Shown one piece after another: positions 352 through 61,106 of a stretch of 64,000 nucleotides of DNA. The position numbers and the translations under genes were made by a program. Position 1 is the first letter of the stretch. Each line of letters opens with the position of its first letter. Source of the stretch: Zasmidium citrigriseum (Eukaryota > Ascomycota > Dothideomycetes > Mycosphaerellales > Mycosphaerellaceae); the NCBI GenBank assembly GCA_002786025.1, contig NHNW01000056.1:208659-272658 (forward strand), given 5' to 3'. A model generated the notes under the pieces. The model did no database searches, had not been told where the DNA came from, and was given only the letters and a program-made list of their open reading frames with translations.

Positions 352-1267
352 TCATACAACGGAGCTATTACCTCTTGCCATTACCATCTCATTCTCTTGG
401 TTAGGGTGTTGGTTGAAGAACCGTTCAACGAAGACGTCTGAACGAACAATTCCACCGACAGCTGTTCCAATTCCACGAACGGTTCGACGACATTCGCCAC
501 TCAGTCCATCCGCCATATCACCGCTGGAATTTCGGTCTATCACTGTCAGCAGTCCCGCACACGAACATTTGGATGCCATGGCTGTCGCTTCCCGCGCACT
601 CACTGTCTCTGTGGAATCGACATTTGTGCCCGTGTTCTCGAAACGAGCAATTGGCACAAGCGCCTCTGAGAGCATCGCCGTCTCCGTCAACAACACACCT
701 CCGAAAGGGGCCCATGCCGCGTTTGCACTCATCGCAAGGCTCTCGCTGGGCGAGACCAACTCGATGAATCTGAAGCGCTCGACGATGCCTCTCAAAGCCA
801 ATCTGAACCGTGTTGCGCCGGCGAACGAACTCATCGCGGAATACGATCCGTTGGCGAGTCGGCAGCTCGAGGCATGTGGCCCATAGCGGTACTCTTCGAA
901 AGCTTGCTTCGCCAACCTTACGTAGCTCATCTCTAAGCTGGTTGACGAGGCTTTCGGTGTAGTCCGCGTTGTGGGCCGGACGGAACTTGTCTCGAGGCAT
1001 CGCTGTTTGAACAGCTGCAGCGTCGATTGCCTCGGGCGGCAGCACGTCTGCGATTGATGCATGAGGGCCATCCTGCTCGTCTTGTCTCAAGAATGCTTCG
1101 ACCATATCAATGGCATCACCCGTTGATGGCGACAGCGATTCCCAATTCGCAATTGAGCTTTTCGAGTTCAATGAAGGTCCATGCCTGCGCTTCGCTGGGC
1201 TTGAGGCAGCAGATCTGTTCACAGACAAAGTCCGCTTCTTGCCGCCGATAGCTGACTGGTCCTTCAT
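352..1267 (-). CDS. DUF3716-type zinc protein, shortened copy (pair 1)
   Basis: The ATG is at 1267. The best model is exon 1 1267-604, a 61-nt GTGAGT...CTGACAG intron and exon 2 542-352 (284 aa). Near the end of exon 1 is the family zinc pattern: CDEC, GPFRRCV, ACANC, then KCRFH. This matches the fungal DUF3716 family of unknown function. The phase-1 intron follows the zinc-binding His almost directly, as in the other two copies. Compared with those, this copy lacks the N-terminal chromo-like segment (W..W motif) and the C-terminal ISR.DC domain, so it looks like a reduced or decaying paralogue. It is divergent from the gene at 1726, with 458 bp between. The second exon is the less certain part. 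Confidence 0.6.
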
Positions 1268-1725
1268 TGACTGTGCGGATGGTCACCTCTGACGTGTGCT
1301 GCGGCCCTTGAGAGGCTACGATCGTGTCCGCGTGCGACGAGCTGGGACAATTCGATGCCTTCCAGATCGTCACTTCGAGCGGGATGATGTGGGTGAAGCG
1401 GAAAACAAATGTGTGCAGGAGAAGGCGAGAGAGAACAGGAAGACAAGAACAGGACAGAGGACAACACCGATTGTTCTGGCGCCAACCCCAAATGTCCACA
1501 TGCTTCACGCTTGTTCCTCAAGGATCAATCCGCGAAAAGGAGAGACTTTCATGGCTTCTCCTTGGTTGATGAGGTCGTACAACGGCTGCGCTTAGGCCAT
1601 GGCGTAGTCCACATCGCTGTGGATTTTCGCTCGCTCAGGAGATCCGCGAGTGCAGCCCACGAGTTCCTCCTCCATCGGGGCTTACTTTGATGCGAGGGCT
1701 CTATCGCTGATGTCCCATTGGCAAC

Positions 1726-2829
1726 ATGACGCCTGCTGCCGGTGCTTCCTCCAAGGTCATGAAATCTGGGAGCAAATCACGCAAGGGTGGAGAATCACGA
1801 AGAGAGTCTTCACTTGAACGGCATCGACAATCGTACATACGAGCATGGACGGCGATTCATCAGGCAAAGGACGCGACCATTGCGGAGGACCGAAATCTGC
1901 TTTCGACGAACCGCCCCCTGTGCAAGAACGATACTTCTGGCGAACCAACATCTGCATCGAAACAGCAGAAACGACCCTAGACCGGAGATGCGTCGAACAG
2001 TTACCACGATGAAACTTCACACTCGAAGAAGAAGAAGCGAAGAAAGCTGTCAAAAGAAGGCCCTCCCGAGAGCCAACACCCAAAGGACCCTTCTTCTCCT
2101 GCTAAACCGTCATTGAAGTCCAAGAGCTCAATCAGTGCTTCCAAAGACAGCGCACCATCCCATAGGGTAGAGGATGAGAATTCCACGGGCGACCCAGATG
2201 CATCGTCAGTCAGTGGAACAGGACTGTTCGTGACGCCTGAGCCTGGAAGTTCTACAGGCGACCATCAAAGCTCAAGCCGAAAATCTCGTCTTCCTCAGAC
2301 GCGGCAATCAACGTCTACATCGAAACTGGTCCCGTTTCCGATGAAAAGGCATAGACGAGATATTGCTTTCGTCACAAACGCCCCAGACTCGCCGGCCGTT
2401 GGGAACGTCTCCGAAGCCACCATGAAAGCAGCTGCTCGAAACACATTCGGACTGCAGAAAGTAAGAAAGGTCTACCAGAGTAGTCCTGGCGTATGGATCG
2501 TTCGACTGCTGGCCACGGAAGATACGAAGGCTGCGGTAGGTGCGAAGCTACTCATTGGTGGTGTTGAGCTCGCAGCCGAGCGCATATCCAAAGACAGCCC
2601 CAGATCTTTCACTTGGACGACTTCAAGAATGTCAGACGTACCTTCTAGAGGGGAGATGATGTCCAGAATATCGAATTTGCTTGGGTCGCGGCAGCCTCCG
2701 CCAGAGGTTCAGATCCAGGAGGCGCCTTGCCGGGTCACTGCGAGATTCTCAGAGCACCCTGGGCTTCTACGATTCTACGTTGAGCTTGCCGGAGGAGTCA
2801 ATGCTCGATTCGACCCTGCGACACCTTGA
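1726..2829 (+). pseudogene. RRM-like partner protein, degenerate copy (pair 1)
   Basis: One reading frame runs from the ATG at 1726 to the stop at 2829, broken only by TAG at 1978-1980 (CCC-TAG-ACC, possibly from CAG). An intron ending in that TAG is a weaker alternative. A Lys-rich segment follows, then a region beginning RRDIAFVTNAPDS that aligns with RRIAFVIGTPDS in the 58,512 gene. Further on, HPGLLRFYVELAGG matches APELLRFYIPFPLA in the 6,438 gene. The conserved CFRPL block is degraded to RFDPA and the terminal zinc knuckle is missing. The gene is divergent from the reduced DUF3716 copy, so both partners of this pair look damaged. Confidence 0.6.
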
Positions 2830-3078
2830 TCTGGATTCTGGGAGATGGTCCGATGCTGTTGCGCTTCCGCCGAGGCGAAGTCAGTACGGAGACCCACAGC
2901 CTGACCGTGCCAAGCACGAAACAACCTCATGACCACCCCATCCTCAACCCTCACCTCAACGAACCACGAAATCAACCATCACCGAGCCATCTCCCTCACT
3001 TCGGCCGGCTTATTTCACACTATATAATGTGAAATTTCCTCTCATCTTCCAATAAGGTCCTCAGGGGCTCTTGGCAAA

Positions 3079-3209
3079 GGGGAAGTGGTGTAGCGGTAGC
3101 ACACGGAGGGGCTCTGGACCAGATATCTCTCGTTACTGGGCCAGGGTGAGATCACTCATACTCTCAGTACCTTAACTCCGAGACATGGGTTCGAATCCCA
3201 TCTTCTCCA
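3079..3209 (+). tRNA. tRNA-like gene with a ~60-nt anticodon-loop insertion
   Basis: The acceptor stem GGGGAAG (3079-3085) pairs with CTTCTCC (3202-3208; one G-U). The D arm is GTGTAGCGGTAGCAC. The anticodon stem CGGAG (3104-3108) pairs perfectly with CTCCG (3176-3180). The variable loop is AGAC and the T arm is ATGGG-TTCGAAT-CCCAT. A run of eight T at 3219-3226 is a good Pol III terminator. The anticodon loop spans 67 nt instead of 7, and U33 is not evident, so I assign no anticodon. It could be an intron-bearing tRNA with unusual splicing, a tRNA pseudogene or a tRNA-derived element. The locus at 54,407 has the same design. Confidence 0.5.
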
Positions 3210-3786
3210 ACTATCGACTTTTTTTTGGCACCTGCTGGAGGTGTGATGGGGATGGTGATATCGATGCGATCCGACCCTCGAAATTTTGGACTTCGCCGAC
3301 GACACATGGGGGCCCCTCCATATCTTTTTGAGCTGCAGCAAACGTTCCATCTTCTCGCACGACGCAGATTCGATTCCCCTCTGTCGAAAGCTACGATACA
3401 CTTTGTCGACAGCTGAACGGAACTCCCGCGATGCAGCCAGGTATCAAGTCTCCTGCCAATCTCTGGAATTTGCCGCCGCATGGCCTTTCTTCTATGATCG
3501 ACTGTCATTTCATGTCGTACCCCATTCCGATTCCGATGGAACGAAATCTCACCTGCTGGTGCACCACCATGAATTATGGTCGATCCTTCGAGACTTCGCT
3601 ATCGTTTCGAACATTCATGAACAGAGACGGACGCTGAACTTTATCACGTGGCCGTAACCTTAGAAGTCACAGGGCAAACAAATGGGGCAATGAATTGCAT
3701 TACGATTTGTATGGGGTTTCATGGGAACTCCTAACATTTTTGAACCAGCACACGATGTCCAACAAGATCAGCGCACGCACTCTCCC

Positions 3787-5950
3787 TTATACTCCGTAGC
3801 GCTTCCGGAGTTCCATCCAAGCCATGGATAGACCGTCATCGCCATCAAGGTCGGTCAGATCGATCGTCTTTTTGTGATCCGGCCATAGGCCGAACTTCTC
3901 CACGAGCTCATTCAACCATTCCCAACGGCGGACAGAAAGGTACCTTTCTTTCGACGGCCACTCATTCTCTTCTCCGTACTTCAGTTTCTTGCTCAGGACA
4001 GACCGCCACAGTCTCTCCAACTCATTCGTGCTCCAGCAATCACAGCGACTGATGATGAAGCGCACCTGTTCATTGGTCGCTGTGCCTTCTTTGAATCTGT
4101 CGGTGACGAGGACCTTTACGTCTTCCGTAGGGAAAGCTCCGGCCAAGGCATCGGTGCACGAGTACCCGCGGACGCAGCCTGGGTGCACAAAATCTCTCGG
4201 TATAGCATCTGCAGAGTCTTGACGTTGGCGTTTGATGATGGGCCCCTCGCCGTCTGCACCGCTGGTACCTGTCATTTCTTCGACCATGTCAAGCACATCG
4301 GCCATGTCATCCGTCATCTGGCGTTTTAAGGGATTTCGTCGAGAATCTATATCGGTAGCATTGGCTGCGTCAACATTGACGTTGTTAACCTGGCGCTCGC
4401 TTTGGGCTGTGCTGCCATTCTCGACGCTTGCCACAAAGCTCTGGATGTCATCTGGAGCGTCTCCGATCACTTCTACGTCCTGGCCTCGTGGTAGAAGATC
4501 GCGATCGTCCTGCGAGGACGCTGGAGTCAGCTGCATATCCAAGTCGTCGAACCCGACCGAACTTCGAGCAGCCTCGCTGTGCGCCCTCTGGGACGACGGG
4601 GCAGAGCTATGGTCCGAGAGGGCGTTGCCAATGCCCATCAGCCTGGGTATGTTCTGAAAAGAATCTACAATCATTAGACGAAGCCCTGTGCTTACTGGTC
4701 GGCACTTACTCCTGGTGTGATATTCACACTGCGTATTGTCGTGTCGGCTGAAGCCACAATTCGCGCAAGCTCCAGAGAAATCGTTCATCCAAGTCACACA
4801 CTTGGCAAAGGGACCTGCTCCGGCCTGGCAGCAACTGCATCGATTGACTTGCGCCACGCCGAAGATGTAAACAAGCATCGCTCGAACCTTGTCCGGCCGG
4901 TCAAAGGTGTACGTCTGGCCCTCTCGCATCAGCGTCGGCGGAAGCTGTAGCCGCTGGCGGATCCGCAGGTTGAGAAAGCGAGAAATGGTGCTATTTGCCA
5001 GCCTCGTCGTCTTGACATTGTCCGCGACCAATAGCTCTCGCCGCATCTGTTTCAGAAAGCTGATTGTGTAGTCAGCATCTGCCTGTGGTTGAAAACGATG
5101 GAAGGAGAAGTGTTTTCTGGTGTTTGGATCCGGTTCCGCTTCGGGGACGACGTAGCAATCTGGAAACTCCAGGAAAGTCCACCAGCTCAGCTCAGCTGTT
5201 TCTTGGGTACTGTTTTTGACCTCGCCAAGTTCCCTTTCGAAGTCTGCCACTGCTTGTTTCGGCAGTTCCCAATCGAAATGCCAACTGGGCTTCCAGACGA
5301 TCAAATCCATCTCTTCACCAGTCGCGGCATGTGACTCAGCAGGAGAGTGCTCTTCAACATCCCACTCAACACCGGCAACTTTGACCGTCAAGCGTCCATC
5401 GTCCGCTTGATGGAGGACAGACTTTGGGTGCTTTGTGTTCGCCCACCTCACCAAATGTTCGACGACTCCATGGTTCCTGCGCTTATTTTCGATCCTCACC
5501 ACCTTCCAGTCTCGGTCTGGAAGGCTTGCTCTTGCTTCATCCAGCAGTCTTCGAGGTGGCTCGACGGATGTGTCGTCTGCTGTTGGCAGAAATTCTTCAG
5601 TCGAGGACTGGCCATCTACCCGTTCTTCACCATTGGTATTCTCAATGCTCTGCTCAATGGCAGCGGACACAGCTACTGGAGGCCGGAAAGGTAGATTGAT
5701 GGGCTGGAATGACGGAAGTTCAGGAGAGCCTAAACTCGATCAGTACTCCTGCGGCTACTCAACACATCGGGTTCGGCCTACCAAGTCCGTCCATTGCTGC
5801 GTTTGATATTTGCTGTGATACGAGCTCTGGACTTGGACAGCGAGCACGCTTTCGTCTTTGCAGTTCCTGCAGATATGAGTCGAGGTCGAGCGAACGACTC
5901 CACAAGTATCGAAGCTCAGACTCTGGGTCCCAACGCCGAGCATTCACCAT
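3787..5950 (-). CDS. DUF3716-type zinc protein with chromo-like N-terminus (pair 2)
   Basis: Exon 1 runs 5950-5782 (ATG at 5950), with a 52-nt GTAGGC...TTTAG intron and the main exon from 5729 to 3787, about 700 aa. Domains in order: an N-terminal segment of roughly 60 residues ending LIVWKPSWHFDWEL, which resembles a chromo-like fold; a middle helical region with ADYTISFLKQMRREL; the DUF3716 zinc core (CSCC, GPFAKCV, ACANC, CEYH); an acidic, Ser-rich linker; and a C-terminal domain with QVRFIISRCDCW. A GTAAGT donor follows the zinc-binding His in phase 1 (4709). The in-frame acceptor gives a 45-nt intron (4709-4665), although retention also keeps the frame. Function is unknown. It is divergent from the 6,438 gene across 487 bp. 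Confidence 0.75.
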
Positions 5951-6437
5951 AGCCCAAACATTGCACCTAGACTCGTCTCTGTGTTCGGAGTTGAGGAGAG
6001 TGATGTGAGGACACAGAACGCGACTCGCGTTCAAGAGTCCGACGTCACGACAAGGGCTCGTCGGCATTGCCCAAGGAGGCAAGCAGGCTCGCGAACCACA
6101 ACAGAGCACGCATCACGCTAAAACGCGAGAGAGCCTTGTCCCCAAGCCCTTCAAACGTCAGTGCAATGGCTGTCAGCATCTCGTGGACCATGTTCGCAAC
6201 CCAAAGTCAAGAGCGACCAGGACTCCCAATTCGGTCTTTGTGGAGAAGTCTGCGAAATTGCAATCGCCAGGGTGATTGAAGCCCAAACCCGACTGTGGTG
6301 GGTTCAGGATCACTGTCTTCTCGCCACCTTGCTCTTTTTGTGGCTGATCACCATCAGCATCCATCCCCTGATCCAGCTTGAATCGAACGCAAGCCTCAGA
6401 CCAGACCAATTCAACATCGCAAGAGCAGTCTCTAAGC

Positions 6438-8353
6438 ATGGGAAAGAAAGGTGCAGAGATACCGTCCGACGATGATCTTCCTCGACCGGTCAAGAGAAAG
6501 GCAGGCCAGTCTAGCGGACGTGCAGAAAATGAAGCCGAGAAAGAGGCAGACGAAAGACGGGGAAGCAAGAAGATCAAAACGGAGCCTGGTGTTCCTACTG
6601 GCCACGTCGTAGCATCCACTGCTCACACGACTATCACCCAATCCAAATCAACATCCGCAGCAGAGGCTTTGATGCGGAAACGAGAAGCATCCTCGACATC
6701 CACACCAAGAGTGGGCACACCGACGAGACCTGAGAGTCCTCCAGTCGTTGAAGTGGCCTTGAAGACGCTGGCCGAAGTCCCGCTGGACAACGATATGTTC
6801 GTGCGTGATGCCATCAGAGTCTTCACCGAAATGCATGTCAAGAGCAGCATGCCCAGGTGCAAGTTTGAGAGCCGAATACCAGAGGTCGAAGAATACTTTC
6901 GCCAGCGGCAGATACCTCCGGCCCAGTCCCTACGGGCCAAATATCTCCTGGGAGAGAGTGAAACGGAAGCGAATGCGTCCTGGATCACAGCAGCATTCCC
7001 CGATGCAGATCTCAGGGAGAGGGTCTGTCAGAAGGTATTGGGTGATCTGCGTAGCACAAAAAGGCTCAGGACTGGTCCTCTGCGCACACCACAGCCCTCT
7101 TCGACCAGTGCCGCTGGAGAAATTCCCTCGCCCCCGCCTTCATCGATTCGCACGAGCAATGGTCCAGGTATCGGTAAGCCGTAGCTTGACATCCTTTCAC
7201 CACTCAGTACGGACGTTCTCGACGGATGTGTCGTGGACACGCTGATTCCTTTGCAGACTTTTACGAAACTGAATATCCTTCTCTGCCACGAGCCGAGCGA
7301 AAGGCTGTTCTTCACATTCACTTCGCCGAGGCCCAGGACATTTTCACATATCATGCGCAACGCCTTCTGGAAGAATCAGTACCGGCAGTTCTTCGTCAAG
7401 AGCATATAACAGGTCTCTGGCTCCGCCTGTCCGAGAAGCAGAAGGGCGAGTGGGAGGCCCTGCTGGAATCACTGCATTCACGGGCACCCAAGGACATGAG
7501 AAGGCCGGAAGCACATACCCTACTCGCCGCGCAACTTGCCCACATCCAACCGTCCTCTGGGGCTGACGAAGAGTCGTCTTTTGACAAAGGAGACTCTCCC
7601 TCGCCGCCCACACAATCTTTGCCCACTCCCATGTATACGCCCGTCAAGGCCGACATCACGTCCTCCAGACCCCAAAACCCCAGCACGCCATCAAATCTCT
7701 CCGCTCCCTCCTACACCTCCCGCCCTCTCCTCATTCCCTTCACACCCTGGCACCCGCATCCCAACACCTACGTCGTTCTCCTACCCATCAACACCCCCTC
7801 CTGTCCAGTCCCCGACGCCACACCCCAGGAGATCCGTCAGGCCTGTCTAACCGCCTACGGCGAACACCGCGACTCCGCCACCATCGAGCAAATCTCACCA
7901 CACTGCTGGACCGTGACCTTCCACGGCAAACACCCCTCCACTCACCCAGGCTTGATCGACCGACCACTGGAGTTGAGAGGCATATCCTTCCGATCGGAGT
8001 ACTTCCCTCGCCAACCACCTGCTTACTTCGAAGCCGACTTCTCCGACACCCGTGCTCTACCCATCCCCAACGACATCATTGCTCGAGAGATCCGTTGGGC
8101 CCTCGCAAGCACCCCAGCACGCTACCAACTCGTGCAGCAATTCAATCCATCGCAAGCGAAAAGGACAGTGGTGATCTATTTCGACTCAGCGCCGGAGTTG
8201 TTGAGATTTTACATTCCGTTCCCCTTGGCGCAGGGGACAGAGGTGTTTGTGGCGTGCTTTCGACCTTTGAAGTCGCAGGCTCGGTGTTGGTTTTGTGGGC
8301 ATATTCATCGAATGAATAGGTGTCGGGATGCAGAGGTCTTGTCGGTGATGTGA
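6438..8353 (+). CDS. RRM-like/CCHC-knuckle partner protein (pair 2)
   Basis: Exons are 6438-7173 and 7257-8353, joined over an 83-nt GTAAGC...TTTGCAG intron, giving 610 aa. The N-terminus is basic and low in complexity (KRK, KKIK). It is followed by a helical block (DNDMFVRDAIRVF...), a second helical block ending LWLRLSEKQKGEWEALL that is reminiscent of HMG-box or Gag helices, a Pro/Ser linker, and two RRM-like segments. The protein ends with VACFRPL and a C-X2-C-X3-H-X4-C knuckle (CWFCGHIHRMNRC). The same architecture, with low identity, is seen in the 58,512 gene. The Gag-like order suggests nucleic-acid binding, possibly a domesticated retroelement ORF1; this is inference. It is transcribed away from the DUF3716 gene at 5950. 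Confidence 0.75.
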
Positions 8354-8690: not shown

Positions 8691-11111
<2,421 letters not shown>

Positions 11112-39390: not shown

Positions 39391-40060
39391 CCTGAAGCTG
39401 CAGATGGAGGAGCTCGAGGTACCAATGTACGTCTTGTCACAGGAGCAGCTTCCGCTTCGAGATGTGACGGCCGATCTTCAATCATCCAACAGCGAGTGGT
39501 CGAAGGAGGGGGAGCGGATGGATGGATGAGTGGGCTGGCCGCGCTTTTGAACAGACGACCAGAAAGACCCCGGCTCGACACACCACGACTCGTACTCGAC
39601 CATGTTCCCGTTGCTGTCGTGCAACGCCTCGACGAAAATCCGCACGCGCGAGAAACTTTGACAGATCCCAGGAGTGGCGTTGATCCGGAACGGTCTTGTG
39701 CGCCTGGCCAACCAACGTTCGGCTCCTCTCAGTTCTGGAAGCTCGCCTGCGTCGCTGTACTTTTCTCGCTGCAAGACATGGCGGCGTGGCCGACGACCAG
39801 CTGACCGCCGGCGTGCACTCGCTATCCTCGATTGTGCCTCTCCGCTGCTGATGAAACATGGAGAGACAGGAGCATCCTGGTCGAGGGGACCAAGCCGGGT
39901 CGAATCAGATTCGGCATCGATCGGCTCCCACGCGAACAAACGTGGATCCTTCGTCATGGTGTGCGTTATAATGACACGGAACCGGGCCCCATACCAGCCA
40001 AGACGGAAGTCGGTGAGAATCACACCGCCGGCCGTCGGCCGGCGTATGTTGACGCGTTCG
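39391..40060. repeat. Dispersed repeat arm 2 and gene-like remnant
   Basis: About 39,715-39,945 is the inverted copy of 32,850-33,060. A minus-strand frame (39478-40023) contains GARFRVIITHTMTKDPRLF and SRVRIFVEALHDSNGN, which looks like old coding sequence. A related piece (VRFRVIIIDPFVI) lies at 43,375-43,420 in the opposite orientation on the far side of the RIP tract. TTATAATGACACGGAACC at 39,966 is mirrored at 43,402. I regard this as a decayed repeat into which, or beside which, the transposon inserted. Confidence 0.5.
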
Positions 40061-43000
40061 CGTTGTTTACCTCACCGTCGACACCTCGCCGTCGCTTTCC
40101 TACCGCCGCTACCGCCCTATAAATTAATTAGCTATTAATTCCTTATTAATATCTATTAAATAGATGTATTCGAGCGGGAGGTAGCTACTCAATTAAGCTA
40201 GTTTCTCACCCAGCCGCCGCCGGCGTTACTACCGCCTATACCTACCCCTTCTCTACTACTTATAGACGCTCTACTATTACCTACCCCCCCTCCGAATCGA
40301 TATCTATCGCCTACGCGTAAGGTATACGTATATCTATCGGCCGACTAGGCTCTTAAAGACGATATCGACGCGCCCGCTACTACCGCTCCGCCGATCGATC
40401 TACCTACTTCGTCTAAGTCGCCTATCGGTACCGCTAGAGGTATTAGTATAGATAAGGAGGGGGGTAATACTCTATAGTAGTTAGATAGTAAAGATAAGCT
40501 ACCGCCGGCGCGGCGGAAGAAGGGTAAGAGGTTAATTGTAGTCGTTAGTAATAGCTATAGGCTACTAGACGCGCCGCCGGCCGTAGAGCTAGAAGCGATA
40601 CGAAAGAAGGTATTAATAATCTAGCCTAGCGAGGTTATCGAGTAGACTATCGAAGAATATAAGCGATACTAGCTATATTACGATAACTTCTAGCGGTATT
40701 ATAAAGGCGAGTATACGGTAGCTAACGGAGCGCTATATACTATCTAGAGGTGTCGATTTGTACGGCCGAAGGGTAAGGTAGTAAGGTAAGAGTATATCGT
40801 TAAGCCTAGTAGTAAATCGATATCGCTAGCGGGTAAGTGCCCGGTAACTATATTAGTGCTCTACTATACCGAAATCGACGAAGAAGGGCATAAGGTCGAG
40901 CGATATATCCTTAGGCGACGAGCTCGTAATATCGCCGCCTATACCGACCGCTATATAGTTAACCGAATAGATCGATTTAAGCGGTGTAGTACTCTAATAA
41001 ATACCGGCGGCTAGTAGGTGTGTAGAGGGTACTTAGCGGCCGCTATATATCGCACGATAAAGTCTAAGTACTATAAAGCTTATTATAAGTAGTATCTCGC
41101 GGCTAGAGGGCGATACCTATCTTAGTAGTATATAGCTAACGCTAGACGGCGGTTTCGAGAGTAGTTTCCGGACCTACGACTTAGCGGTAAGGCGGCGGTA
41201 TAGTAGGTATAGTAGAAGGACCTTCTATAATAGTTAATTAATAGTAAGTAATTATCTAATAATAAAGAAACGTTACTAGAGCTAGAAGTTTAATATCGAC
41301 GGGTGCTACTAAGTAGCCTAAGGTATTAAATTTTGCTCTATCCGAGCTATACGAGCCTATCCGAGTTTTCCGAGTAACGTTACTTTATCGATATTATACT
41401 ATTAATTTCACTAATAATACGCTCTATAGACGACTACTACGCCGAGAATATTACCGCCGAGTATCTTAATAATAACAATATTACGGAGACTACCTATACT
41501 ACCGTTTTTACGACCTCCGACGGCCTACGAAGGCTCTAGAAGTACCGATAGCTCGTCCTTATAGATACTACTTACAAAACTAACTTCCTTAGCTAGTACC
41601 TCTTCTTACTCGTTATCCGTAATAACTACGTCTTCTAGAGGCCCTCTACCTTCTTCCTTTCGAAGTCTTAAGACGGCGATATTATTATAGTAGCGCTAAG
41701 AAAACTAGTCTTATAGATACCTAGCTTTTAACTATTATATTTCCTTATAGACGACTCTAAAGCCGAGCGGCTCGCTATACGAACTATCTAGCTACAATCG
41801 TAGTACCTCCTTTATTAGGTGCACTACTAACGCACTTTAAAACGACGATTTAGCGCCGAGAAGTACTAGAAGACGTACTACTACCTTGTGTCCGCCGTAA
41901 GGTATCGTAGAAGCGAGACAACTACTAGAGAATCGTTTATAGCGGCGTTAGCTACGCTACCGGCTAAGGATAGTAAGGATTTAGAGGCGTAGAAGCGGTA
42001 TATTCTTAATATCTAAGAGTATAAGATAAGATTATAGTGCAGTTACTATCGAATAGCTCTTATACTTCTATAGTAAGCACTAACGACTAATACCGTTAAG
42101 GTATAGTATAGGTGGTTAAAATATAGGCGTAAGAGCGTAATAGCTCGGTCCTATAGCCTCTAAGGCGTTATAATAGCCGTCGACGAGCTTGTTAAAGAGC
42201 GCGATTAACAATTACTTACCTAGTAAGAATTAGAGTAAGACAAGCTCTACCCCCTCGTAGTAGCTTATAAGAAGAAGAATCTAGTTACTAGCGAGCTCGA
42301 GGAAGAAGAAACCGACCCTCTAATTACCTATATTATAGAGCGGGTGCCGGCCCGTATATAATAGCTTATTAGTAATTAAATTACCTCTATAGTAAGGCCG
42401 GAAACTTAGATTAACAAGAAGGGTAATACGAAGGAGCTACGGCCGCTTAACGATAATAAGATCTAGTACAGTTATCGCTTCTAGCTATTATATAAGCCTA
42501 TACCCTACAATTACCTATAGTAGCACTACTATAAGCTCGACGGCCTACTACTTACTCGCGACTTCTTCGACAACTTAATTACTATCTTTGCTAGCGGTAA
42601 TTCGATGTCTATCTATAGTAACTAGCTAACGTACCTTTACGAGTAATAACCCTTAGAAACGGACGAGCCGCCGCCGCCGGTTAGCGATCTAGTCGCTTAC
42701 CGCCTTAGAGTCTAAGCGATATACGAGTAGGTTATCTAACTTATATATAGCTATAAGGAAGACGTTAGAGATAGCGGTGCTACCCGCGAGGAGTTTATCT
42801 ACTAAATAGAGGTCTATTATCGCTTCCTTTACTAGTAGTTTAGAGCCGTTAGATCTAAGGCAATACGTAAAGAGTTTATAGTAAGATATAAGCGTAAGCT
42901 CGATATCTCGGCGCCTATAGTAGCACCTTCTACTAACCTACCTAAGGTACCCTTAGAGCCGTTAAAGCGGCCGGTATTATCTACTAAGGCACTAAGGAAG

Positions 43001-43275: not shown

Positions 43276-43899
43276 GGCTGCCCCAGCAACGCGATCACGG
43301 TGCACACACGAGATCACGGTTTTGCAGGGGACTGCCACTAGGAGCCGGATCCAGCCTATGCTCCGAAGTCCGACATGTGGGTCCGGTTCCGTGTCATTAT
43401 AATCGATCCCTTCGTCATTGCATCCGATTGCCGACTCGACCCCTATCCTCTTCCTCACCACTGGACCTCAACTTTTCCATCACCTAAAAGACCGACAATC
43501 GATCCGTTGAAAACTGGAGACCTGATCATTCAAATCGGCCACGTTCAACAGGCAACAGGATTGAACAGCAGACAGCTCAACAGCAGCGAAGCCGAGGTCA
43601 GGTTCCCGCATTTCCAGGTCAAGCAGTCTTTGAGGCAACATGATCGAATTCAGATCCAACCGCATTTGTTGTGAACACAGAAGCCATCTTTCGCTCTGGA
43701 TTGGAGAGATGCAGCAAACTTCAATATACTCAATGACCGCACGGCCGAGGACATGACGACGGGAAATGGCGATGCTTGAGTCGTGCCTCATTCCTTCCGT
43801 CGTCAATCATTCATGAATACATCACGGCAAGCTATTTACATTCTCTTTCATTTCCTGGCATCAGAACATCTCGTCACAATAACAATTTGCTTACTAGGA
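43276..43899. other. Right flank of RIP element; no intact gene
   Basis: Starts with normal-composition DNA that contains an inverted match (GGTTCCGTGTCATTATAA, to 43,402) to the left flank. The remainder is the 3' flank of the multicopper oxidase gene. No supported gene. Confidence 0.5.
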
Positions 43900-46096
43900 T
43901 TACGCCTTCTTCAATCCGGAATCGATTCCCGTCAACAGAGGTCCGCCGGTCTTCTTCAACCATGCATTCCAACCATCGCAGGTACCCTTGATTTGGGAAG
44001 AGGCCGACTTCAATGACTTCTGGATGCCTATCACTGAGGGCTCGACAATATTCGCCACCAATCCCATCGACGAGTGCCACGCGAAATGACAATGAAGTGG
44101 CCAGACTGGGAGGCATTAGCTGAATCTTCAACGGGAGCGGGTGGTACAGCATACTTCCTGGATTGTCAACATCCCACTGGATCACAAGGAAACTCGGCGT
44201 CGTCTCTGTACCCGGCGGCATCATTTGTACATCTCGACGCTGTGGGTTGTTGGGACGTACGATGCTACCATCCCACTTGCCGAAGCCCATGTTCAGAATC
44301 TGCATGTTGTGCCCTGCCATATCAATCAGCAAGTCGACGCATTTCTGGACCCCGGCAGACTCACCATGATAGTGGATTGGATGAGGCGCATCATTGTAAT
44401 TATAGATGATGGCCCGGGCGACCTTCGCATCCTTCAGATACCAGAGATTCCTCGTCGGATCGACTTCGATGATCTCGTTGTCCACAGCCTTTCGCAGCAG
44501 CGGCTCGTTGAAGTTGGCTCGAAAAGTACGCTGACCGAAAGTATAGATGATGTTGGTGCCGTTGCTCTTCGTTCTGATCTCGAACTCCCGCGTGGCATCT
44601 GGGCTTGCGGCCTTGAGTGGGTAACTTGGCTCCGTCACACTCAGGGGATCTCCCAGACACACTCTCTGATCAGATCCGGCAGCGGGACCTTGGTTGGCAG
44701 GAGCAGTCGGCAGGGTTTTCGTGTCGGCTCCCTGGTAATAGATGGCAGCCCGAGCTTCTGTCATCACTCCATCGTTGAGCGAGCAGCCACCTCCGATATT
44801 CGAGCGCATCCAGTATCTGATGGTACACTGTCAGCATGGCAAAGGATATATCCCGGGCTTATGGTTGGACATACTTCTCACCCTTCGTCCCGGTCCCGAA
44901 TACGACAACATCCGCGCGTTGTCCCACCCCAAGAGCCACCATGCTGGTGTTGTATGGCTTGACCGGCATGTAATCCGTCGCGATGACCTGCATGGTGTGA
45001 CCGTCGATGCTGAATTTCTGCACCGCCGCCGATCCGACGTTCATCAGCCTCAGCTTATGATTCTTTCCAGAGGTGAAGTTGAACTTGGCATAGGCGGCTG
45101 TCACGCAAGGGAGGTTCGTCTTGCCGCACGGGAACCTCATCTTGCCATCGATCAGGTTGCTGTTGGCCAGCGGTTTGACTGGTCCTCCATTCTTCAATGG
45201 CCGGAACAGCTTCTGAACCGTCGTCCACGGACTATCGCGATACCACTCCGACAGCATCACAGGTCCGACATCGATGTCGTACGCCGAATTCCATGGCCCG
45301 TAGACAACCATCGGCCCCACCGCTCCTCCGGCATATTGCGCACTGTAGTGAGTGTGGTACCACGAACTCCCATACAATTCGGCCTGCAGAATGAGTCAGC
45401 GAATGTACGGAGCTCGTTCGGTATACTCGCCTTCATGGTATACGTATACGATTGTCCCGGAGCGATGGGACACTGCTGGACGCCTGGCACGCCATCATTC
45501 TGGCAGTTGCTTGTCTGTAGAAAGCCATGCCAGTGCATAGACGTGCCCTCATCTTTGAGGCCGTTCGTCACCTTCACCTGGATAGTATCGCCATAGTTGG
45601 CTTCGATCAAGGGACCGGGGAACTGCCCGTTGATGCAAACAGCTCCTTTGGTCAACACTCCGTCCGGCTTGATGTCACAGGAGGCAACAGTGAAGTCGTA
45701 CGTCCTGACCCTGGGACCGTTCACCTTTCCGGACGAAGTATACGGATTGGCATTGTTCGTCGTCATCCCACCCCACGGCTTGCCGTACCCGTTCCAGGAT
45801 GACCACTGAGGCAGAGCGCTTTGGTTGAAAGATCCCCACGTCGACCATCCATTCTGGCCCATGGGCGAGATGTTGCTGTCGTCGTCCGACTTCCAGAATC
45901 CCCATCGCTTACGAGGCCTGTCCCAATCCTTCGCATGTCCGTTGAAGGTTCCTGGGCGGGCTTCATCTTTGTAACGACCGGGAGAGGGCTTGAACATATC
46001 CCATGGCTGGTTCTGATTCTTGCGATCTGCAGCGACGCCTGGAGTTGCGGTGGCGTACGCTGCCAATACGAGGAGGCATGTGGCCTGAGAGAACAT
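43900..46096 (-). CDS. Secreted multicopper oxidase (laccase-like)
   Basis: Five exons (46096-45431, 45383-44875, 44816-44365, 44313-44155, 44105-43900) keep one frame and give 663 aa. Intron 1 is GC-AG (GCGAGT...CTGCAG) and the others are GT-AG. A signal peptide (LVLAAYATATPGVA) is followed by a Trp/Gly/Asn-rich region of about 110 residues, longer than usual. All copper-binding motifs are present: SMHWHG, SSWYHTHYSAQ, HPIHYHGH and HCHFAWHSSM. The Met after the last His block sits at the axial position of the type-1 copper. The family oxidises phenols or metals with reduction of oxygen to water. Laccase is likelier than ferroxidase, but the substrate cannot be read from sequence. Confidence 0.93.
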
Positions 46097-46849
46097 TTTG
46101 ATTCACATATCCCGGAGTCAAGTATACTGGTGAGTGAGCAAGTTTGAGGGCATTGTGAGGATACGACGGGCTGAAGACATGATGGATAACATTGGCATTC
46201 GTCATGAGACTGACTGTTATTGAAACAGCCTTGACGAGTCGAAGGATTCTCACACTGCAATGCTACCCGTGATCGATCGGCATGCCGAAGGAGATCTGGC
46301 AGCCTTCCCGAATGAGGTCAATTCTCTTTGTTCGACCTGGACGCAAACGACCCACTCAAGGCTAAAGAGAGCATTTCTCTTTGGGTCTCTTGGACGCTTG
46401 CACTCGGACTCATGGCCACGAGGTACAATATCGTTGATCACGGCGATGACGGAGTATACCATCACTTTCTTGGCTCTATTCGAACGACCATGCCAAGGCT
46501 GTACTGCTGATAACTCGAAGAACGACAAAGAACACAATGGGCGAACAACTCGGCTTCTGCCACTTCGAGATGCCTTTGTCGGCCGGCTTTGAGGCATCAA
46601 GGCTTGGGCTATTTCCATCTCGAGTCCTTTATTCAATGGGGACAACCCTCGAGTGCAATTTCGAGGACGACATCTCGAGGGAGGTGATAAATTGCTCCGA
46701 GAAGACCATCATGCCTTTCGACAAATTTCGACTCTTCCGTTCGTTCCAGGAGATTTCCATATTCATACCATTTTGCAGCCGGACTGCTCTTACCAAGCGA
46801 GCCAAAAGATCAAAAATAATCACTTCACCAACGAAACGATTCGAAAACG
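46097..46849. other. Divergent intergenic region
   Basis: Serves as the promoter for both the multicopper oxidase (minus) and the amidoligase-like gene (plus). Short frames on both strands show no motif. Confidence 0.45.
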
Positions 46850-48860: not shown

Positions 48861-50576
48861 TCATGCATGCCAATGATGCTTCTTAGGGTACTGCTTCACC
48901 CACTCCTCCAGCTGATCCAGCACTTTATCCTGGACCGCCTTACATCCCGCATTCACATCACCATTCCGGGTGATCAGATCACTCGTGTGGAAACCTCCCG
49001 GCACAATCTCCACCGGCACCTGCTCGGTGCTCTGCAGCGGACCACCAGGTCGCTCAATCGCAGAGACACCGGATTCTCTCCACGGATCGTAGCCACCGTT
49101 GACGTAGATGAGACGAGTGGTGTTGTCGATGTTCCAGCCGCCGGTGTATGCGTTCACGTCGGCTTCGGATCTGCCCTTGGCGATGCCGTAGGTCTCGCCG
49201 TTGGGACCTGGTGGGAAGTAGACGCCGCATTGGCGGATCCAGTAGTCGGCATCAACGAGGCGTGAGACGATTGAGGGGCGGTCGGATGGGGCACCGTCTT
49301 GCCAGTAGCCGAAGGGTTCGTTGCAGGTCATCCACACCTGGAAACAGTCAGTAAGAAATCACTATCATTCTCGGGGACATCGACTCACCCATTGACGATC
49401 GACTTTGTTGCTCAACGAGGTGTCGGTGAACAATGGGTTGCTAGTGTCGTAAGTATCGAAGCAGGCCACGCTGTAGTTGTCGGCGAATTCTTCGTATCCA
49501 TAAGCGGCGCAGTATCCTTCGAGCTGGGTCTCCGTCCACCACTTGGCGTATCCTTCCAGTGCGGTCTCCAAACCAACGCCATCAGGGCCAGCCACATCAG
49601 ATCCAGTCTTGTTGACTGAATTCTCGATGTAGTCACACCACGTGTAAAAGCCCGTGCTGGTGTAGAATTGATTGCCCTGCCACAGCCACGGTCCGTTCTC
49701 CAGCGCTGCCATGAAGTCATCGTTGTGCTTTACTCCAGTCATGTTGAACATGGCCTTGAGATCGTGGACCTCCTCGTCGGATCCGTTCATGAGGATGTCG
49801 TCCATGTGGTCGATGACTAGCGAGACGTCCTTGGAGCAGTTCTTCGGCATTCCCTCTTGGACGGGAATGAAGTAGCCCCAGTAGTCTGAGACCGCTTGCA
49901 CAGGAGCGCTGGATGCGTGGTATGCCCAGAGAGTTCCAGGTTCGACCGATGCGAGCCAGGCAGAGAGCGCTCCAGAGTATGAACCTCCCATCGTCACCCA
50001 CGGCACATCCTTCGCATTGCTTCCACCTCGCTTCGCAAACGGTAACTTGACATGGTTGGCGAAGTAAGTCATGTCCTTGAGAGAGTTCTCCAGCGTCAGG
50101 TACTTCATGTTCTCGGTCGTGAACTCCTCGACCGGACTGGACACTCCCCAGTATCGATGTTCGAGCACAATCGTCGCAGCTCCAATTCTTTCAGCGAGCA
50201 AGCCAGTCGTGCGATTGGTGCCAAGATAGGTGTAGTATCTCGTGGCATTGACCTCTCCCGGAGTGAAGAGGATCACTGGCGAGCCAGGTCCCTTCCAATA
50301 CGTGGTGTCGTAGAAGTAGAACTGCGAGAAAGTCCCCAGACTGGGATCGTTGTGATCGATGAGCTGCTCAAAGGTGGCATTGAGAGAACCCAGAGGTGCT
50401 GCCTTTCCGGCTGGTAGATGCCATCCGGAGCCCCAACCGCCGTGAGGATAACCCCCAGTCCAGTCCACATCATTCCAATCATGTCCCCCATGCCAGCCAT
50501 GTCCTCCTCCTCCCCCGTGGTGCCATTGCGCACTCGTGACCGCGGCCGAGGCCAGGAGCGCCAAGGCAATCTGCAT
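48861..50576 (-). CDS. Secreted serine carboxypeptidase, S28 family
   Basis: Exons 50576-49389 and 49337-48861, with a 51-nt GTGAGT...TTTCCAG intron, give 554 aa. The signal peptide is MQIALALLASAAVTSAQ. It is followed by an unusual Gly/His/Trp-rich segment (residues about 18-55) before the conserved start LNATFEQLIDHNDPSLGTFSQ. The catalytic Ser lies in TMGGSYSGALSAWL. VNGGYDPWRESGV carries the expected Asp and VPGGFHTSDL the His. Many N-glycosylation sites (NATR, NRTT, NCSK) fit secretion. The family (prolyl carboxypeptidase/dipeptidyl peptidase II) cleaves after proline, usually at acid pH, for nutrient use or plant-protein digestion. Confidence 0.92.
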
Positions 50577-51640
50577 CGTGGGGAGGTGATCTGATCAGGA
50601 CGGATGGAAGTTCAGATCGTAGCTTTGTAGACCTGGCTGTGCAAGGCTGACCCTGCGACGATCGAATATTATGGAGGCCAGGGCCAGGAGTTTCGAAGCT
50701 GGCCTGTTCGCGGTAGCAATGAAAGGAGAATAAAGTGTGTATACGTTGAGGGAACGGGGTCTGGTGCAGTAATTAAAAAGAAGAGCGTCCTACCTTCCAC
50801 CGCATGCTCGGTGGCCCGCGCATTGGGTCGAGGATGCACTGATGCAGCGTCACTGCTGCTCGTCGACAATCGAAAGCGCAGCAGGGTGGGCCGAAGCATG
50901 AGCTCCTGCCCAGTTGGTCGTAGAGGGAAGCGTCCTATCGTTAGTCTCCTGCCGGATGCCGGAAGGCGTGGTGGAGATCGCACTCGGCGAGGGTTGGTGA
51001 AGATAGTCGGTGCAACGCTGCCCTCACACCCAATCTATCGTCGCGCGCCTGATACGGTCTTCTCCCCTCCGGACCTGCATGATGGCTGCGTCTTGATCCT
51101 GCTTGTACCTGAAGCCAAGTGCGCTTACCGCGGGCAGTATCTTGGAGTGTGTTCCTGGACTCGCAATAGTGCTCGCGAGGCGGGAAGACTGGTATCTGCT
51201 CGCGATGTATTGATCATTCACCGGAAAAATACGCTGGCACCAATTGGCACAGTTCTTGGTCGAGGGGCGATGGTTTGCTGAGTGATGCGGGCGGTCGATG
51301 GTCGATGGTCGATGGTCGATGACGGAATGCGATGAAGCCGAGGGCCAAGACGACGGGCGCAGTCGAGCAGCGGCATCGTCATCTTCTCCAAAGCTTGACA
51401 GTTTCTTCAGCACAGGAGAAATGCAGATGGTCTTGAGAGCACCGAAGCGAAAGAGGTGAGGTCAACGAAGACGAGGCTGAATTTTGATGCGGCAGGCACG
51501 AAACGAAAGAGCCGGCTGCCGGTGCAGACGAATGGGAAAGAGCCACCGACTCCGACAGGAAGGACGATGTTTCAACGCACATTCGAAACGGTCTCGATTC
51601 GCATGCATGCAGCCTTGCCTGAAGACGTTCTTCGTCATGG
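50577..51640. other. Intergenic; short GGTCGAT tandem repeat
   Basis: Promoter of the S28 peptidase at left. A 7-bp repeat (GGTCGAT, four units) at about 51,295-51,321. No gene supported; frames of up to about 150 codons carry no motif. Confidence 0.45.
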
Positions 51641-51645
51641 CGAAG

Positions 51646-54956: not shown

Positions 54957-55996
54957 ATGGCGCCCATCGATTTGACGTGGAACGAGGCGCTGTCGGGCGT
55001 GTTTGGCAGCATCTCATTAGCCGCCTGGATCTTTCTGCTGGTTCCACAACTGATCGAGAACTACACGCAGGGCCATGCAGACGGCATCAGCCTGACCTTC
55101 CTCTTCATCTGGTTCGTCGGCGACATCACGAATTTGGCCGGCGCGCTGTGGGCGGGGCTGGTGCCGACGGTGATTGCTCTGGCGGTGTACTTCTGCTTCG
55201 CCGACCTGGTCCTGATCGCGCAATGTCTCTACTACCTGGCTGCCAAGAAGCGCGCGATGAAGGACTTGATTGAGGGCTCAGCGGCGGAGGCGAATGGAGC
55301 TCCAGCAGAGGGCGAACAGACGCCATTGCTCAACGGCAACCCCAACAAAGCTGCTCCCGGTCAGCCAAAGCGACGACTCACCGATGTGACCGACGAGAAT
55401 CTGGGACTGCCGGGCAGTCGACGAACAAGCAGCGCCGCCTTGCGACGACGAAGCACGAATGAGCACCGCCAAGACACTCTTTCCCGCGTGTTGGAAGAGC
55501 CGACACGGACAAGAGCGACGATTAAGAACACCGTCTCCATCCTCGGCGTCATGGCCGTGGGTGCGGCGGGCTGGGCAATAGCGTGGAAGGCGGGTGCGTG
55601 GAGGCCGACCCCCATGGGCGACGAAGATACGGGCGATTCGCCCATTGGAGCCGAGATTCTGGGATACATCAGCGCCGTGTGCTATCTGGGCGCGAGGATA
55701 CCGCAGATTGTGAAGAACCAGCGGGAGAGATCGTGCGAGGGGCTGAGCTTGCTGTTCTTCCTGCTGAGTCTGCTGGGCAACTTGACGTACGGGGCTGGTG
55801 TGAGTATATTTCACTCTCAGAACAGTGGGCAGAAGCTAACATGTGATAGATCCTCTTTCATTCGGTGGAAAAGCAGTACGTCCTCACGAATTTGCCCTGG
55901 CTCATCGGAAGTCTGGGTACCATGTTCGAGGACATCACCATCTTCATCCAGTTCCACGTCTTTGGCGACAAGCAAAAGGCCGCGGCCATTGTATAG
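54957..55996 (+). CDS. PQ-loop vacuolar amino-acid transporter (Ypq/Rtc2-like)
   Basis: Exons 54957-55799 and 55850-55996, with a 50-nt GTGAGT...GATAG intron, give 329 aa. Two PQ-loop repeats are present: LVPQLIENYTQGHADGISLTF in the first and ARIPQIVKNQRERSCEGLSL in the second. Around them lie seven hydrophobic helices, with a polar loop of about 90 residues (LLNGNPNK, SRRTSSAALRRRS) between the third and fourth. The N-terminal LSGVFGSISLAAWIFLLVPQL is typical of the family. In yeast such proteins export cationic amino acids from the vacuole, and the architecture supports that here. A tRNA-like gene lies upstream on the same strand. Confidence 0.9.
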
Positions 55997-56142
55997 ATAT
56001 TCAGACTACAGCAGCAACATGAATGTACAGAACTCTTGGATTCAACAGACATACAGCACTACCTGGGGACCGAGATGAAGAGTCCAATGAGAGGACAATA
56101 TATCGACGACCAGCAGCGGACTGCCCACGACTATCGCCACGT

Positions 56143-57947: not shown

Positions 57948-58511
57948 GGACCAGCTCAGTCACTGGGCCCGATTTTGAGCAGGAACACGCAAAGACTACT
58001 GGTGGATGACAGTATCATACGAGAATGTTGGTCGACGTCACATGCCGCACAAGTTTTCATCGGAGTGTGGAAAACGACTCCTGGTCGCGCTGGCCTGACC
58101 CTCAAACCGTCAACATTTGACTGCTCAGACTTGAAGAAGTCGACGACGGACACGCCATTTGATTGAAAGCTCCTGGCCTGGCTCAATCAAGCTTCATGCA
58201 GACATGGACAGCCGCGCATCGACCCTGTCTCACCCCGCGAGCCCAAATGAGCAGCCCAGAACGTCAACATCGACGAGACTCCCAAGCTACTCGTTTTTGG
58301 AACATGCTATTTTCAATCCTCGAGGGATCGAGAGTGTTGTGCTGGGTGCCATCCCACGCCAGGGGCATCTGCACTTGCTCATTTCCAACCATGGTGCGAG
58401 ATCGTCGTGCTGTACGACTGTTGCTTCCTTCCAGCACCTTCGTCCTTAGTACTTTACCCATTGCTCATTTGACATCGTCTTTCAATTTCTCCATCATCCA
58501 TTGCCGCCGTC

Positions 58512-61106
58512 ATGGAGCCCATCAGTCCTTCGAACATCAGAGCCCGAAGTCATCCTGTCGACGAGCGAGCAAGAGAAGATCCATCTCCGCGATGGGATGA
58601 ACAGCGCGAACGCCGCAATCTCAAGATGTTCTCCCGCGCCATCGGTAGGGAGACTTCGCCCACGCCTTCGGTCAGCAGTCGATACGCCAGAAAGATTGGA
58701 GTCTTTCCTCCCAGCAGATTGAGAACCGTTGCCCGTATTTCTGAGGAGCCGGGCGATTCAACTACGAACGATGCCGGCAGCAATGCACCAGAGACTGCGC
58801 AATCAGTCATCCTGCATGTGCCAAACGAAGAAGATGCGGACATTTCCTCTGCGGCAATGCTGTTGAACAAGCACGAAGCGAATCATCCGTATTGCAAGAC
58901 CGCCATCGGGCAGCTGGTCGAGTTGATGTTCTCGGACGACAAGTTTGATGCCGGTATATCCAAGAGGACAGCAACGCTCGCTGAAAAACTCTTAAGCCAT
59001 GGCCTGGACAATTCCAAGCTAGACATCGTTGCGGCAGATCTCATGGAGAATGCCCGCCACTCCAAAGCCACTCGTCTTGGTCGAACCCTCACCGATGAGA
59101 CGGCATTGCACGTCTTCCTGGATGATCTCAAAGCCGGCGTACCTGATCGAAACATCAACGATCTGCTCCGCAAATGGCAGCGAGATCTGGAGTGTCACAA
59201 GCCAGGGGTCGACAGAGGCGTTGATGCTGGAACTGCCACGCCGCTGCAATTGGCGACACCCACTTCCCAGCACTCGACAGGGCCGACGAATTATCAGCCG
59301 CCCCAGGTCCACGACGAAGAAGATGGTCTGGACGACGCTCCCGAATATCAAGCAGACGATGTCGAAGTTGGCGGTGTGAACATCAACGTCGCTGAAGAAG
59401 AGCAGTTCTATGTTTCCGGTGGCCTTCCTGATGACGACTTTGTTCAAGACGATCTCACTCACGACTCTCACTTCGACGCCACTGACGACTTCGTCTACGA
59501 CTCAAACCAACGGGATGTCAGAGGCGCTGATCCGAATCAACATGCCTACGATGACCGCTCCGAGTCCGACTTGTACGGGTGTTCCGTGTCTCCTAGGCCG
59601 AGGCATAGCCGTCCTGAACCAACAACAATGCATGAAGCTGAGGTTGAAGAACTCATGGAGGATTCAGACAAGGAAAACATCGACATCGACATGATCGAAC
59701 CACTTGCTGACGAGGGGCGCCCGCTCGACTCCGACATGAACAAACCACAGCCTGACAAGAAGTCTTGCGTTGACGCCGACATGGATGCAACGCCACCCGA
59801 GAAGAATCCAGACGTCGATGCCGACATGGAGAAATCAGAGCCTGAAGAGAAGTTCCACGACAGCACGATGGCCGAGCCGATGCCTCGTGACCCCAAGCGC
59901 ATCGCCGACTTCACCAAACGCTTCCCAGACGCACTTTCGGTCTTCATCTTCCATTCCCATCTGCTCCTTGGCCGCAGGTGCACACCAAGTCGCCCAGGCA
60001 ACGTCAAGGTCACCAAGAGAGCAAGGACCATCTGGTCGACTCTCACAGCGAATGAGCGGGCTGAATGGGATGAATTGCGCCTTCAGTTGCAAGCTGGAGA
60101 TAGTTCGCTTCTGGATTCAGCGTTCGGTCTCCATCTCTTCTCACGGCAAGGACTGCTCCACCGGCTGAAAGACCCGCCCGACGAGACTTTGTCGTTCATT
60201 CCGACTGAGCACGTGTTACCGGTGAGACCAAAGCCACCTCAACCAGCCGAAGAGCAGTCAGACAGACGTTCCTCCACCACTCGGAGCTCTCGCTCTTCCT
60301 TTTCCCGAGGCCCTGGCCGTAGACCGTCGCACCATCACCATGTCGCTCGGAATACGCGGACTCCTTCTCGAGGTCCATCGCGTTACCGCGGAAAATGGAG
60401 AAGGCCATCCCACTCTCAGGCGCCATCTCAACCTCAGGTGCCCCAGCCGGATATCACTCTCATCTCCGACAGCACACGTGTGCCTCACTCGAGGCCTGTC
60501 GTAGTCACATATGACGATGACAGTGCCAACGACCGGAGGATCGCCTTCGTCATCGGGACGCCGGACTCCCAGATCAGCCATCTCGACTCGGTGGATTTCC
60601 AATACGCCTGCAGGGCCAGCTTCGGTGACCAGGCTGAGCTCGAGCATTGTGGCATGCTACACGAACGCCTCTGGGTCGCGCAGCTGAACAATGCTAACGC
60701 CATCGAGCAGGCGATTCACGACGGAGCCTCGATGCAATACGGCAACATTCGGCTCTACGGTGAGGCGTTTCCACGGCCTACGAAGCTGCTCGAATGTGAT
60801 CTGGCCCAGACCGATGTCACGCCCCAGGAGCTCATCGATGCGGTGGCCGACACTTTGCGTCAGAGCCGTTGCAAGTTGTTCAAGTCTCCTACGGCTGGCC
60901 GCTACATGCTCGTCGTCCCGATCCCGTCTCGCTTCATCCTTCGTCTATATTTGCCAGTGTCACGCAGTGGTGTCGTTGCGACCCATGTCTGCTTTCGGCC
61001 CTTGAACCCGGAGCCGCCTTGCAGTGCTTGTGGAGTCGTGCACATTGATGTCTGTCCGCTGGCGAACAGGGTTCCTTTGAAGCCTAGGAAGCATGGCCAA
61101 CAGTAG
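58512..61106 (+). CDS. RRM-like/CCHC-knuckle partner protein (pair 3)
   Basis: ATG at 58512, single exon, 864 aa. Order of regions: disordered Arg/Ser-rich N-terminus; helical block (NHPYCKTAIGQLVELMF to DETALHVFLDDLKA); a long acidic linker with repeated DxDM/PEEK-like units; a helical block with IWSTLTANERAEWDELRLQL; an Arg/Ser/His-rich segment (RGPGRRPSHHHH) that could bind RNA; two RRM-like segments (RRIAFVIGTPDS..., then LLECDLAQTDVTPQELIDAV); THVCFRPL; and the knuckle CSACGVVHIDVC. Compared with the 6,438 protein the blocks are collinear but the linkers are longer and the intron is absent. Nucleic-acid binding is inferred. Its partner is the DUF3716 gene upstream. Confidence 0.78.
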   Translation: MEPISPSNIRARSHPVDERAREDPSPRWDEQRERRNLKMFSRAIGRETSPTPSVSSRYARKIGVFPPSRLRTVARISEEPGDSTTNDAGSNAPETAQSVILHVPNEEDADISSAAMLLNKHEANHPYCKTAIGQLVELMFSDDKFDAGISKRTATLAEKLLSHGLDNSKLDIVAADLMENARHSKATRLGRTLTDETALHVFLDDLKAGVPDRNINDLLRKWQRDLECHKPGVDRGVDAGTATPLQLATPTSQHSTGPTNYQPPQVHDEEDGLDDAPEYQADDVEVGGVNINVAEEEQFYVSGGLPDDDFVQDDLTHDSHFDATDDFVYDSNQRDVRGADPNQHAYDDRSESDLYGCSVSPRPRHSRPEPTTMHEAEVEELMEDSDKENIDIDMIEPLADEGRPLDSDMNKPQPDKKSCVDADMDATPPEKNPDVDADMEKSEPEEKFHDSTMAEPMPRDPKRIADFTKRFPDALSVFIFHSHLLLGRRCTPSRPGNVKVTKRARTIWSTLTANERAEWDELRLQLQAGDSSLLDSAFGLHLFSRQGLLHRLKDPPDETLSFIPTEHVLPVRPKPPQPAEEQSDRRSSTTRSSRSSFSRGPGRRPSHHHHVARNTRTPSRGPSRYRGKWRRPSHSQAPSQPQVPQPDITLISDSTRVPHSRPVVVTYDDDSANDRRIAFVIGTPDSQISHLDSVDFQYACRASFGDQAELEHCGMLHERLWVAQLNNANAIEQAIHDGASMQYGNIRLYGEAFPRPTKLLECDLAQTDVTPQELIDAVADTLRQSRCKLFKSPTAGRYMLVVPIPSRFILRLYLPVSRSGVVATHVCFRPLNPEPPCSACGVVHIDVCPLANRVPLKPRKHGQQ

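Follow-up and report, generated by a model that had tools for sequence, protein, structure and literature searches.

The window analyzed here is a 64,000-nucleotide (nt) stretch of Zasmidium citrigriseum contig NHNW01000056.1 (C101), and it forms the end of that contig in a genome of 44.4 Mb and 148 contigs. It contains three head-to-head gene pairs, each consisting of a minus-strand gene for a protein of the DUF3716 (PF12511) family and a plus-strand gene, called the partner here, for a protein with a possible RRM-like region. The start codons of the pairs are located at 1267(-)/1726(+), 5950(-)/6438(+), and 57947(-)/58512(+), which leaves ATG-to-ATG gaps of 458, 487, and 564 bp for pairs 1, 2, and 3, and the three similarly spaced divergent pairs described in an earlier note on this DNA were therefore confirmed. 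Copies 1 and 2 are separated by approximately 1 kb, and the three pairs fall within one 61 kb region. The gene models are predictions made without transcripts, and the features are as follows, with product lengths in amino acids (aa).

352..1267, minus strand: copy 1 DUF3716 gene, short form; predicted exon 1 at 1267-604, 61-nt phase-1 intron at 603-543, exon 2 at 542-352; 284 aa
1268..1725, no strand: divergent intergenic region 1, 458 bp, from the start codon positions
1726..2829, plus strand: copy 1 partner gene, candidate extent; RRM-like region, without knuckle; in-frame TAG at 1978-1980
3787..5950, minus strand: copy 2 DUF3716 gene; three predicted exons, introns at 5781-5730 (52 nt) and 4709-4665 (45 nt); 688 aa
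5951..6437, no strand: divergent intergenic region 2, 487 bp, from the start codon positions
6438..8353, plus strand: copy 2 partner gene; predicted exon 1 at 6438-7173, 83-nt intron, exon 2 at 7257-8353; 610 aa
56143..57947, minus strand: copy 3 DUF3716 gene; two predicted exons, 50-nt phase-1 intron at 57037-56988; 584 aa
57948..58511, no strand: divergent intergenic region 3, 564 bp, from the start codon positions
58512..61106, plus strand: copy 3 partner gene; one exon, 864 aa from its ATG

The assignment of all three minus-strand genes to the DUF3716 type was borne out by a six-frame genome search, in which PF12511 matched copies 1, 2, and 3 with 57.5, 42.1, and 55.9 bits, all above the curated cut-off of 22 bits; the match of copy 1 lies at window positions 611-778, and a separate scan gave 36.6 bits for copy 2 and 52 bits for copy 3. 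Seven residues are invariant in the three copies (C301, C304, C314, C325, C328, C338, and H341 in the numbering of copy 2 open frame P0003), and their pattern of C-x2-C, C, C-x2-C, C, H is that of a zinc-binding-type protein with putative metal binding. No Pfam family other than DUF3716 exceeded its cut-off in the pair frames when the nine pair frames and 30 other window frames were scanned, a DUF4636 match in the second exon of copy 3 stayed below it (17.8 of 27 bits), and NCBIfam matched 0 of 7 frames. The copy 2 protein has a chromo-like N-terminal region, the DUF3716 domain, and a helical C-terminal domain. Its 688 aa compare with the 689 aa of Zasmidium cellare PRZ48_008739, and its Zasmidium relatives in the protein database, of 689 and 859 aa, share 38-39% identity over 94-97% of the query region. 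In the whole-genome homology searches, in which the best candidates were scored, the copy 2 protein recovered the window copies only (expectation value, E, of 3.4e-15 for copy 1, and 2.6e-9 and 2.5e-7 for copy 3). A profile built from copy 2 and the Zasmidium proteins recovered the C-terminal domain of copy 3 at E 7.7e-14 and its chromo-like N-terminal region at E 1.3e-8.

An intron was predicted in the same place in DUF3716 copies 2 and 3 and likely in copy 1. The phase-1 intron of copy 3 immediately follows the zinc-type domain, the 45-nt intron of copy 2 is in the same predicted place, in a reading consistent with the annotated Zasmidium protein P0012, and copy 1 has a donor at this place from which the 61-nt intron leads into the 284-aa frame ending at 352; an alternative acceptor would give 228 aa. 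Exon 2 of copy 1 was considered as the C-terminal domain of the other copies and was rejected, as its score did not exceed that of shuffles, and the N- and C-terminal profiles of the family did not match the copy 1 protein. In terms of codon bias, trained on eight other window frames, the true frame was best in 8 of 11 stretches, including the 3' exon of the copy 2 DUF3716 gene.

The chromo-like N-terminus proposed earlier was upheld weakly. A PDB profile search with the N-terminus of the DUF3716 protein returned chromodomain proteins as 22 of the 24 matches at E<=10, with a best E of 0.031, and a reversed-profile control returned 0 matches. These matches are short (21 of the 22 span 23-26 positions only), and Pfam Chromo did not match the region. 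Compared to the chromodomains of HP1/CBX proteins, residues 75-100 of P0003 resemble the first part of the domain, but approximately 48 further residues lie between this segment and the W-x-P motif and there is no significant whole-domain match. The alignments are thus a hint of a chromodomain. The low-confidence structure model of the DUF3716 protein had no Foldseek match at E<=0.001, and the absence of chromodomains among the rows listed says little at such confidence.

Genome-wide, DUF3716 was found above its cut-off in five places, which are the three window genes and two genes on contig C72 (26.2 and 24.7 bits). Compared to other DUF3716 proteins, copies 2 and 3 carry the chromo-like N-terminus and the C-terminal domain, whereas the profiles miss both regions in the C72 genes and in copy 1. 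The two C72 genes (locus L006, 5800-6510 and 8113-9120) are on the same strand as a third, doubtful DUF3716-like frame (1377-2279, E approximately 0.05), and this same-strand array is followed by an unnamed, apparently repeated domain.

The plus-strand partners form a family of their own. Leave-one-out profiles of the RRM-like region, searched against 2396 open frames from the window and six other genome loci (L006, L007, L008, L023, L024, and L025), recovered the third copy at E 1.3e-5 (copy 1), 4.8e-9 (copy 2), and 4.7e-9 (copy 3), and no further frame scored better than E 0.71. All three partners have this region in common. The helical blocks that the earlier note had also aligned, one N-terminal and one before the RRM-like region, could not be linked in the same way: one of the four single-copy profiles listed the other copy, at E 2.4, and in the other three it was not among the best six frames. 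An HMG-box-like impression of the second block was discarded, as Pfam gave nothing at E<=10 and the copies did not match each other significantly. In the genome search, partner copies 2 and 3 recovered each other (E 1.4e-6 and 7.4e-6) and the remaining matches were at E 0.105 or worse, the 877-aa open frame of copy 3 recovered only itself, and copy 1, the weakest member of the family, recovered only itself at E<=10, with no link to copies 2 and 3. Among the best candidates scored across the 44.4 Mb genome, the partner family was thus detected at the three pairs only, and no fourth pair was found by profile in the window or the six loci. In viral contigs the partner profile gave 37 pattern matches, 0 of which were confirmed.

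The two intact partner copies, 2 and 3, end as previously described in CFRPL followed by a short Cys-Cys-His-Cys (CCHC) motif, with a spacing of CX2CX3HX4C in copy 2 and CX2CX3HX3C in copy 3; this end is absent from copy 1. The usual CCHC zinc knuckle has the spacing CX2CX4HX4C, which is also shown by the zf-CCHC matches of this genome. The partner motif deviates from it and has no zf-CCHC match in Pfam, and it may be called knuckle-like only. A further match to this end on contig C74 (L016; E 0.138 in the genome search and 0.0045 in the profile search) was judged to be chance, because the first cysteine is missing and the 3 kb locus contains no DUF3716 profile match. The copy 1 partner has an in-frame TAG at 1978-1980 between its ATG (1726) and the RRM-like frame, and for this reason its extent is only a candidate. 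In copy 3 there is a long middle region that appears acidic and disordered by eye.

Two RRM-like segments had been proposed for the partner. RRM-like secondary structure is present in the partner model, whose confidence is low (mean predicted local distance difference test score, pLDDT, of 46), and the PDB fold matches of the model were tied with unrelated folds. This model had no Foldseek match at E<=0.001, a PDB search with the partner profile gave 0 matches, and the two RRM-like halves aligned to each other with an hhalign probability of 3.9%. These results offer no more than a hint that the shared region may be composed of RRMs.

The duplications that produced the pairs look old, because DNA similarity between the loci is lacking, protein identity is low, and copy 2 groups with Zasmidium proteins. 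A blastn comparison at E<=1 gave no match between loci 1 and 2 or 2 and 3, and three matches of 14-21 nt between loci 1 and 3. Identity between the protein copies is mostly 21-32%, rising to 35-39% in the C-terminal domain of the DUF3716 proteins. In two small trees, copy 2 and the two Zasmidium proteins were separated from copies 1 and 3 with support of 85 and 100, at distances near saturation. From this grouping, the duplications probably predate the split from the Zasmidium of the two database proteins. The DUF3716 family also evolves fast, since P0011 and P0012 share only 55% identity. Both carry the name Zasmidium cellare, and the low value may mean that the name of one isolate is wrong or that strict orthology does not hold between the two genes. 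A recent segmental duplication was ruled out because blastn matches between the loci do not exceed 21 nt, and the single recent, near-identical duplication named earlier as an alternative was not what was found.

All three partner genes are head-to-head with a DUF3716 gene, an arrangement that occurred in 0.0001 of 200,000 random shuffles of order and strand, in which three DUF3716 and three partner genes were placed among 22 local genes (an estimated number); the copying of a single pair as a block, in our view what happened, lies outside this null. A mobile element with terminal repeats was also considered and rejected, as no inverted repeat flanks any pair. Copy 1 has one 14-nt inverted repeat pair inside a gene, copy 2 has none, and copy 3 has three imperfect ones of 15-19 nt, each with one or both arms within genes.

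These data demonstrate an old, repeatedly duplicated divergent gene pair whose members are still adjacent. The interpretation that we favor, to which we assign a probability of roughly 40%, is that this is an ancient, apparently lineage-restricted pair that was copied as one unit two or more times and whose products act together. Under this interpretation, the two genes would share a bidirectional promoter. The DUF3716 protein, through its chromo-like N-terminus, Cys/His domain, and helical C-terminal domain, may recognize chromatin or DNA, the partner, with its possible double RRM and knuckle, may bind RNA or single-stranded nucleic acid, and the complex of the two would have a nuclear role, perhaps directed at repeats. 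Pfam lists DUF3716 without a known function, and a fixed partner would offer a functional lead and simple tests; at the least, a little-studied family gains a candidate partner. A full-text search of 5.39 million papers returned no study of the family: 'DUF3716' had 0 matches and 'PF12511' had 1, in PMC5225507, where a Colletotrichum gene that is specific to one strain and carries this domain is mentioned briefly in the passage retrieved.

Nearly as likely is the explanation that the genes are ordinary divergent neighbors that were copied by old segmental duplications and have no joint function. Several observations weigh against cooperation of the two products, the first being that their adjacency may be mere inheritance from block duplication; the orientation is the same in all three pairs, and copies 1 and 2 lie approximately 1 kb apart, which fits passive inheritance. 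The three intergenic regions have no 8-mer in common on either strand, and they share two 7-mers, which is fewer than in shuffles (mean 4.08), so that a shared promoter motif was ruled out. Copy 1 appears reduced in both genes, and the DUF3716 genes of C72 occur without a partner, with no partner profile match in the surrounding 26.9 kb. The protein database contains no detected homologue of the partner (none at E<=1 among 7129 candidates, and in a second search none at E<=0.1 among 7997 scored), and the same database includes Zasmidium proteins, among them the relative of the copy 2 DUF3716 protein. This miss is easily explained, because the search needs shared 5-residue words, and true absence is also possible; between the copy 2 DUF3716 region and its two Zasmidium relatives there are 10 and 17 such 5-mers in common, compared to at most 1 among the partner copies themselves. 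The structure models of both proteins are of low confidence, and in the codon-bias comparison the 3 exceptions among the 11 stretches were two end pieces of copy 1 and the first exon of the copy 2 partner, the last of these being nearly tied. Passive inheritance is in turn opposed by the persistence of adjacency while identity dropped to mostly 21-32%, and by the occurrence of the partner at no other place in the genome.

A second alternative, which we consider unlikely, is that the partner is a domesticated protein of the first open reading frame (ORF1) of a type I long interspersed nuclear element (LINE), with its RRM and CCHC knuckle, recruited beside a DUF3716 gene. In the retrieved parts of two papers (PMC4120745 and PMC3905857), type I ORF1 proteins are characterized by one or more RRMs that immediately precede a CCHC knuckle, and the former reports the type for the Tad1 clade among others. 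The layout of the partner, with its putative RRM fold, fits this definition. There is also a precedent in the sections obtained of PMC4641428, where the origin of a gene family in powdery mildew is traced to the ORF1 of a LINE and fast evolution is described for such proteins. The partner shares with the ORF1 proteins of the I, Jockey, R1, Tad1, and other clades the possible RRM-like regions directly before a CCHC-like C-terminal knuckle and the fast divergence. It differs in that neither an adjacent reverse transcriptase nor a sequence match was found for it, and in being confined to three loci. Relative to the usual CX2CX4HX4C, its knuckle (CX2CX3HX3-4C) also lacks one residue in copy 2 and two in copy 3. 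By analogy, then, the partner may be said to resemble type I LINE ORF1 in layout only.

The searches for retroelement sequences also oppose a LINE origin. No relative of the partner was found elsewhere in the genome, and partner profiles gave nothing in the loci around 20 of the 45 CCHC matches and 30 of the 150 reverse-transcriptase matches; these loci span only approximately 3-3.5 kb, so that a first ORF lying farther away would escape detection. Contig C101 was not represented among the 150 RVT_1 matches listed (150 of 175 candidates were scored), and no Pfam reverse transcriptase or endonuclease matched any frame of the Pfam scan set. The PF14529 endonuclease, the one endonuclease family searched in the genome, was not found. 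As to the Gag-like character suggested for the partner, the searches made gave no sequence similarity to Gag or to any other protein of retroelements.

If it were true that the partner derives from a LINE protein, this would be another instance of a fungus taking an RNA-binding protein of a retrotransposon into its own service. A stronger version, which we hold to be more doubtful still, combines such an origin with cooperation: some fungi would have a nuclear system of two components that has not been described before, in which a chromo-like/DUF3716 protein and a LINE-ORF1-like protein would be encoded by an obligate, co-duplicated divergent pair and might defend against transposons by means of a retrotransposon's own RNA-binding protein. 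A selfish two-gene element (a killer with its antidote, or a drive) is improbable, as its rapid divergence, apparently narrow distribution, and several copies in one 61 kb region with one of them reduced are set against the lack of flanking inverted repeats or common flanks, the lack of any Pfam match above cut-off but DUF3716, and the Zasmidium relatives of the DUF3716 half over 94-97% of the query region.

The surroundings of the pairs contain other features. A tRNA gene is located at 3079-3209, between copies 1 and 2 (Rfam, 49.6 bits); at 131 nt it contains an insert, which is perhaps why it was not called by ARAGORN. Between the pairs are also a peroxidase-family frame (8691-11111), a multicopper oxidase frame (43874-46102), and an S28 peptidase frame (49365-50594). 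The segments at 40001-43000 and 62001-64000 are AT-rich and have a strong signature of repeat-induced point mutation, with TpA/ApT of 1.83-2.32 and (CA+TG)/(AC+GT) of 0.12-0.38, and the final approximately 120 bases of the contig change suddenly to very GC-rich sequence. Elsewhere in the genome, the CCHC and reverse-transcriptase matches on contigs C60, C65, and C134 do not differ in score and lie 28,933 bases apart on each contig, and this suggests either that a segment of at least 29 kb is present in three copies or that the assembly is redundant.

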